The position numbers and the translations under genes are program-made. DNA of 64,000 bases, taken from the NCBI GenBank assembly GCA_026393115.1, contig JAPLAU010000033.1, forward strand, positions 1 to 64,000. The letters are read 5' to 3'. Under the pieces are notes generated by a model. The model had not been told where the DNA came from. It saw only the letters and a program-made list of their open reading frames with translations, and did not search any database. This stretch comes from Actinomycetota bacterium (GTDB taxonomy: Bacteria; Actinomycetota; Actinomycetes; S36-B12; CAIYMF01). Of the stretch, positions 11,131 through 11,202 are shown piece after piece; the stretch's first letter is position 1, and every line of letters starts with the position of its first letter.

Positions 11131-11202
11131 CTCCCGTGGACAGGCGGGTCTTCCCGCCGCACTCGATCGGTCGTTTTTAACCGGTCACTGGTAACACGGG
11201 AG
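11131..11202 (+). promoter_or_regulatory. Candidate structured leader (three-helix junction) masking the pyrG RBS
   Basis: CTCCCGTG (11131-11138) is the exact reverse complement of CACGGGAG (11195-11202). Between them lie a 6-bp hairpin GGCGGG/CCCGCC (11143-11158, loop TCTT) and a 7-bp hairpin GATCGGT/ACCGGTC (11165-11186, one G-U pair). Together they could form a three-way junction. The 3' strand of the outer helix contains GGGAG (11198-11202), the likely Shine-Dalgarno of pyrG 6 bases before its ATG. The fold depends on the transcript starting upstream of 11131. TAGATT (11060-11065) would allow this; TACATT (11122-11127) would start too late. Confidence 0.5.

Follow-up and report, generated by a model that had tools for sequence, protein, structure and literature searches.

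The window, a stretch of 64,000 nt from an Actinomycetota bacterium, contains the gene pyrG for CTP synthase, of which orthologues were found in 394 of 396 genomes of the phylum. The features of the region upstream of this gene are given in Table 1. Folding of positions 11131–11202 gives an outer helix P1 with eight perfect pairs, which encloses two inner hairpins, P2 and P3. The Shine-Dalgarno sequence lies inside the 3' arm of P1. The minimum free energy of the leader is −35.4 kcal/mol, compared with a mean of −22.7 (sd 2.9) in 200 dinucleotide shuffles (z = −4.36); none of the shuffled sequences is as stable. An earlier note on this DNA had described just such an outer helix of 8 bp with two inner hairpins, closing over the ribosome-binding site of pyrG, and the calculation bears it out. 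The three-helix leader proposed in that note holds only in part: the helices fold, but P3 is not conserved and positions 11131–11132 are probably upstream of the transcript, because an extended −10 lies at 11119–11127. RNAs starting at the predicted positions 11133–11136 would likely contain at most six of the eight outer pairs.

Table 1. Features of the region upstream of pyrG in the window
Feature	Positions	Strand	Evidence or remark
Extended −10, TG-A-TACATT (TGATACATT)	11119–11127 (hexamer TACATT 11122–11127)	+	Same position (TGN-TANNNT) in 94 of 95 leadered genomes; TG in 80 of 112 leaderless ones
P1, 5' arm, CTCCCGTG	11131–11138	+	Only 11133/11134–11138 likely transcribed; register kept in 95 leadered genomes
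Start-site region C6-C7-C8-G9	11133–11136	+	Predicted alternative starts: CTP 11133–11135, GTP 11136
Possible leaderless upstream frame GTG..TAA, 14 codons	11136–11180	+	If the start is 11136; frame and peptide not conserved
P2 hairpin, GGCGGG-TCTT-CCCGCC	11143–11158 (11143–11148 with 11153–11158)	+	Fold; two-sided changes in 4/6 pairs
GCAC, 3' of P2	11159–11162	+	Kept in most leaders of the subgroup that includes the window
P3, inner hairpin, lineage-specific	11165–11186 (11165–11171 with 11180–11186)	+	Fold; not recovered as a common element
P1, 3' arm, CACGGGAG, holds the Shine-Dalgarno	11195–11202	+	Fold and arm register
Shine-Dalgarno GGGAG	11198–11202	+	6 nt 5' of the ATG
pyrG, CTP synthase, 556 aa	11209–12879	+	Orthologues across the phylum

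When 60 relatives were searched at the DNA level, the leader turned up only in the genome of the window and in its one congener; covariation had therefore to come from pyrG orthologues. The sole other genome of the genus examined has the same leader with one different base, in a loop. We did not find any relevant Rfam family for the leader, either in the whole window, in 11 relatives or at a lax threshold, where its single match was antisense and far under its gathering score. Elsewhere in the window, at 52084–52298 of the + strand, two matches to Rfam RF00504 (64.6 and 33.3 bits) correspond to a tandem glycine riboswitch.

Upstream of pyrG we have found a conserved promoter and start module, TANNNT-N5-Y-C-C-R: counting from the end of the −10 box, position +6 is a pyrimidine, +7 and +8 are C and +9 is a purine. 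It is present in 216 of the 217 pyrG regions of Actinomycetia when the 220 nt upstream of the gene are searched, while 5.3 are expected from shuffles. These regions include five second copies, so that one per genome leaves 212 genomes. In other classes, with 150 nt searched, the box appears in 11 of 27 regions (0.4 expected) and 16 are without it. The search pattern itself includes the CC, but the spacing was left free in the first set, and so was the base at position 6 in the classification. All 207 classified genomes of the class have C or T at this position, while any base occurs at position 5. Among the first 97 loci, where the gap before CCRTG could be 3–9 nt, every row has 6 nt at the box; for two of them (L038 and L046) the scan chose another site, and the box lies upstream of it.

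In the window the sequence around the start reads TGA-TACATT-GAACTC-CC-GTG, and the box with an extended −10 occurs only once in its 64 kb, both strands being searched. The arrangement is the same in distant Actinomycetia such as Streptomyces, Nonomuraea, Actinomadura, Micromonospora and Mycobacterium: the box is followed by CCGTGG, then, after a stretch that varies, by (C)CACGGGAG or CACGGAGG, and finally by the start codon. The full leadered pattern is found in 41 of 118 genomes of the class, with one match in each, compared with a single match in the backward control; all the 30 loci inspected among these 41 precede pyrG. In 400 kb from two genomes, four other genes have the box ahead of an RTG, none of them a pyrimidine gene as judged by eye. 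A sigma-70 scan gave no promoter: it requires a −35 and extended −10 promoters are outside its reach. An unguided search of the pyrG upstream regions for their best stem was too noisy in this GC-rich DNA.

The 212 genomes of the class can be divided into 95 with a leader, in which a 3' arm is found in register, 112 without a leader, in which the frame is open, and 5 others. The latter are three leadered-like variants (L142, L226, L236), one duplicate sequence (L206, identical to L203) and one miss (L255). One locus in which the match begins inside the gene (L105) was left out and another (L126) was reassigned from leadered to leaderless. Four leaderless rows from other classes (L167, L174, L178, L179) were taken out of the class counts. 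In L303 the matched 3' arm lies within the gene and the arm of the leader itself is a variant.

Pairing of the +6 to +12 sequence with the Shine-Dalgarno region is found in the 95 leadered genomes, the window included; most of the others are leaderless. At positions 7, 8 and 9 the pairs are always C-G, C-G and G-C. They are invariant and nearly required by the classification, so they carry no covariation signal; the C7 and C8 pairs never vary because the G-G of the 3' arm is also the Shine-Dalgarno. The flanks do vary: position 6 has 81 C-G, 10 T-A and 4 T-G, paired in 95 of 95; position 10 has 92 T-A and 3 T-G; position 11 has 84 G-C, 2 A-T and 1 G-T, with 8 unpaired; position 12 has 43 G-C, 31 G-T, 2 A-T and 1 C-G, with 18 unpaired. 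Covariation is thus found at positions 6, 11 and 12. Counted over the 38 distinct arm pairs, 136 of the 152 cells at positions 6, 10, 11 and 12 are paired, compared with 126.5 (sd 1.6) after permutation, and none of 5000 permutations is as high; this statistic ignores relatedness, and the pair score of at least 6 required for a leadered classification tilts it towards pairing. The idea of the earlier note, a cis-acting leader able to hide the Shine-Dalgarno of pyrG, is well founded in this respect: P1 occurs in 95 Actinomycetia genomes with covariation in the outer helix, the lack of which the note had regarded as evidence against it.

The leaderless genes show the same module in a different setting. 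Other genera of the window's own family belong here by their appearance: their pyrG starts at a GTG or ATG 8 nt after TANNNT. The window has retained this box, but behind its former GTG, at 11136, comes the leader, and pyrG begins at 11209. In the 112 leaderless genomes of the 212 the purine at +9 is the first base of the pyrG start codon, and the gap between −10 and RTG is 8 in every one of them. At gene starts in a reference of 400 kb from two other genomes of the class, distances of 6 nt (30 cases) and 7 nt (16 cases) are the commonest, 8 nt occurring 6 times and 9 nt 3 times. Since the gap is 8 and 6–7 is usual, a C at +7 or +8 holds the usual start position, one or two bases 5' of the purine of the start codon. 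This geometry suggests two competing starts, one with CTP and the other with GTP or ATP. The pyrimidine at position 6 is kept in leaderless genes too, although pairing of the P1 type is impossible there. The extended form of the −10, TGN-TANNNT, is found in 94 of the 95 leadered and 80 of the 112 leaderless genomes. A pyrG protein tree with 136 rows requires no fewer than 8 switches of the leadered or leaderless label, and well-supported branches impose 4 of these; the start module has remained constant despite them.

A third arrangement is found in f26, a small sister class with four genomes in which the upstream region is readable (L153, L154, L155, L235), the match in a fifth having begun within the gene. 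A hairpin at the 5' end includes the Gs of the Shine-Dalgarno, and a run of T follows on its 3' side up to the start codon, so that it looks like a terminator; folding was done for L155 alone. In the pyrG leader of this class the terminator-like element overlaps the ribosome site.

Another explanation would be that every clade has a fixed start, at G +9, and that YCC does no more than favour this start. The RNA of leadered clades would then begin with 5'-GUG and P1 would have 3–4 pairs; any regulation would be due to a constitutive structure or be unrelated. The fact that RTG at +9 is the start codon in the leaderless genomes is in keeping with it, and a general preference for C at −1 of a start, described for mycobacterial starts in PMC4633059, could account for part of the CC. 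We nevertheless consider it unlikely: it has to face the gap of 8 throughout the leaderless genes when 6–7 is usual, and a position 6 which pairs with the 3' arm in every leader and covaries between C-G and T-A. Furthermore, 10 leadered genomes which have A at +11 (GTA) still have YCCG, and the same layout is found in E. coli pyrC.

This last gene is recovered by the same expression, TANNNT-N5-YCCR: E. coli K-12 pyrC has TATCCT-TTGTGT-CCGGC...GCCGGAG, with its start codon 38 nt from C7 and the 3' arm over the Shine-Dalgarno. Its starts are said, after work by Liu and Turnbough in 1994, to lie 7 and 9 nt from the −10. The window, with C at 11134 (+7) and a purine at 11136 (+9), has the pyrC type of geometry. 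In pyrC and pyrD, transcription starts with CTP when the ratio GTP/CTP is low, and the RNA then forms a hairpin which blocks the ribosome (PMC7818426). The pyrC and pyrD genes of E. coli and Salmonella share with pyrG of Actinomycetia the −10 followed by Y6, C7, C8 and G9, although E. coli pyrD fits the box only with a relaxed −10; they also share a C-started 5' end (predicted in Actinomycetia) able to pair with a downstream arm, which in pyrC, as here, holds the Shine-Dalgarno. The differences are that the gene here is pyrG, that its leader is often long and has extra hairpins, that the −10 is extended, and that the actinobacterial module also persists with leaderless mRNA. E. coli pyrG, which is said to be under start-site switching, codes for the same enzyme and its sequence TATACT-GCTTTC-CCG fits the box, but it comes from a proteobacterium and the comparison is by the start box alone. 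In E. coli K-12 the TANNNT-N5-YCCG box of pyrG lies 49 nt ahead of the start codon.

The pyrG gene of Firmicutes is controlled by attenuation through reiterative transcription, with slippage at GGG. In that system, as proposed here, CTP is sensed at initiation, and class f26 has a comparable terminator-like 5' hairpin; however there is no GGGC start here, the start region being YCCR, and no terminator is found in the window's leader at 11131–11209. Reiterative transcription at a run of C instead of G appears extremely improbable to us: CCC at positions 6–8 is indeed present in 81 of the 95 leadered genomes, but a T at position 6 breaks the run in the other 14 and in 49 of the 112 leaderless ones, and the YCCR start region differs from the GGG of Firmicutes.

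The interior of the leader is much less uniform than its ends. The stretch between the arms of P1 goes from 23 to 155 nt, and a shared three-way junction or common core was sought among the leaders and not found. P2 is common to the window and a subgroup of leaders and is not general: in 13 leaders chosen by hand four of its six pairs have changed on both sides, and the score of the whole structure is 0.272 compared with 0.141 when shuffled, none of 500 shuffles being as high. GGAC and GCAC also recur in this subgroup. P3 was not recovered as a common element; it is absent or different in other leaders. Of the three helices in which the earlier note advised looking for compensatory changes, the flanks of P1 and P2 have them; P3 is not shared. 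It could be suggested that GCAC at 11159–11162 pairs with GUG at 11136–11138 and so competes with P1; this pairing has no covariation, GUG being invariant in the subgroup.

A ligand-binding riboswitch with a three-way junction or a leader bound by a protein, the two possibilities raised in the earlier note, would have P2 and the GGAC..GCAC of the subgroup as its core. We find this reading quite improbable. The covariation of P2 and the recurrence of both tetranucleotides agree with it, but the interior varies in length with no conserved aptamer core, P2 and P3 are not general, the leader has no relevant Rfam match in the window or in 11 relatives, and 112 genomes have the same start module but lack a leader altogether.

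The interior might also be translated. A start at +9 would give a 5'-terminal GUG, and translation of a leaderless upstream frame would then open P1 and P2 and be coupled to pyrG. GTG is found at +9 in 85 of the 95 leadered genomes, and the 14-codon frame of the window ends at 11180. The stop of this frame falls on the edge of the P3 loop, and the frame is out of phase with pyrG. However, among these 85 genomes 24 frames close before pyrG and 22 enter it in frame, so neither frame nor stop is kept; the changes in P2 alter the peptide and the GTA variants do not have the codon. We take this possibility as very improbable.

In our opinion the feature in the window is probably the leadered form of a CTP start-site switch of the pyrC type, acting on pyrG. 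The conserved module, its fixed spacing, the pairing with its covariation and the layout common with E. coli pyrC are observed; where transcription starts, how this depends on CTP and what it does to translation are inferences. RNA polymerase at the extended −10 would start either at the pyrimidines +6 to +8 (11133–11135) or at the purine +9 (11136). When CTP is high, the CTP-started 5' end (Y)CCGUG would pair with CACGG(G)AG, the Shine-Dalgarno would be hidden and little CTP synthase would be made. When CTP is low, the start would shift to G +9: the helix would be left without its C-G pairs and the Shine-Dalgarno would open. In leaderless clades the RTG start codon would stand at the very 5' end, and be well translated, when transcription begins at +9; with a start at +6 to +8 it would lie 1–3 nt inside and be poorly translated. 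According to PMC4633059, an RTG placed at +1 is probably translated better than one at +2 to +5. In class f26 a C-started 5' end would complete the terminator-like hairpin. CTP, which the earlier note had named as a natural signal, is probably the right one. The note had also held that a transcription start at or after about 11134 would speak against its fold; the conserved promoter geometry predicts starts at 11133–11136, which makes the 5' end of the RNA, rather than an aptamer, the likely sensor. Still more tentatively, as an idea we would not yet call probable, a single CTP sensor encoded in the promoter may govern CTP synthase in most Actinomycetia and in parts of other classes, the same three pyrimidines having three outputs: hiding of the Shine-Dalgarno, conversion of a leaderless mRNA into one with a leader of 1–3 nt, and a terminator in f26.

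The predicted cost of opening the Shine-Dalgarno decreases as the start moves downstream. For starts at +3, +6, +7, +8 and +9 the mean values in the 95 leaders are 7.61, 6.97, 5.57, 4.70 and 4.34 kcal/mol; in the window, where +3 is position 11130, they are 8.85, 6.01, 5.78, 5.77 and 5.43 kcal/mol. In the minimum free energy folds of the window P1 is retained with a start at +6 and lost with a start at +7. The modelled trend fits a start-site switch, but the step from +7 to +9 is weak in most leaders: its median is 0.71 kcal/mol and it exceeds 1 kcal/mol in only 38 of the 95. The small gain predicted for the window is, among the computed results, the one that speaks most against a strong switch in this organism.

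A 'pyrG motif' is named by Narunsky et al. 2024 (PMC11109978), next to another motif which turned out to be a uORF; the main text gives only the name and the description is in Supplementary Figure S5. It may be this element or one of Firmicutes, and our claim of novelty is provisional. We have found no description of this control in Actinomycetia in the literature, as represented by open-licence papers.

CTP synthase makes all CTP de novo. The region upstream of its gene is a real, conserved regulatory element found throughout the class, with the leadered form in the genus of the window. If start-site switching also holds for leaderless genes, a metabolite would control leaderless translation through the choice of the start site. 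A recent review considers riboswitches unlikely for such genes (PMC9031893), and the switch would give them a mode of control where riboswitches are doubted. The module has survived all the changes between leadered and leaderless forms on the pyrG tree, and a single prediction resolved to the base, C at +7/+8 versus a purine at +9, spans very many species, among them antibiotic producers and mycobacteria.
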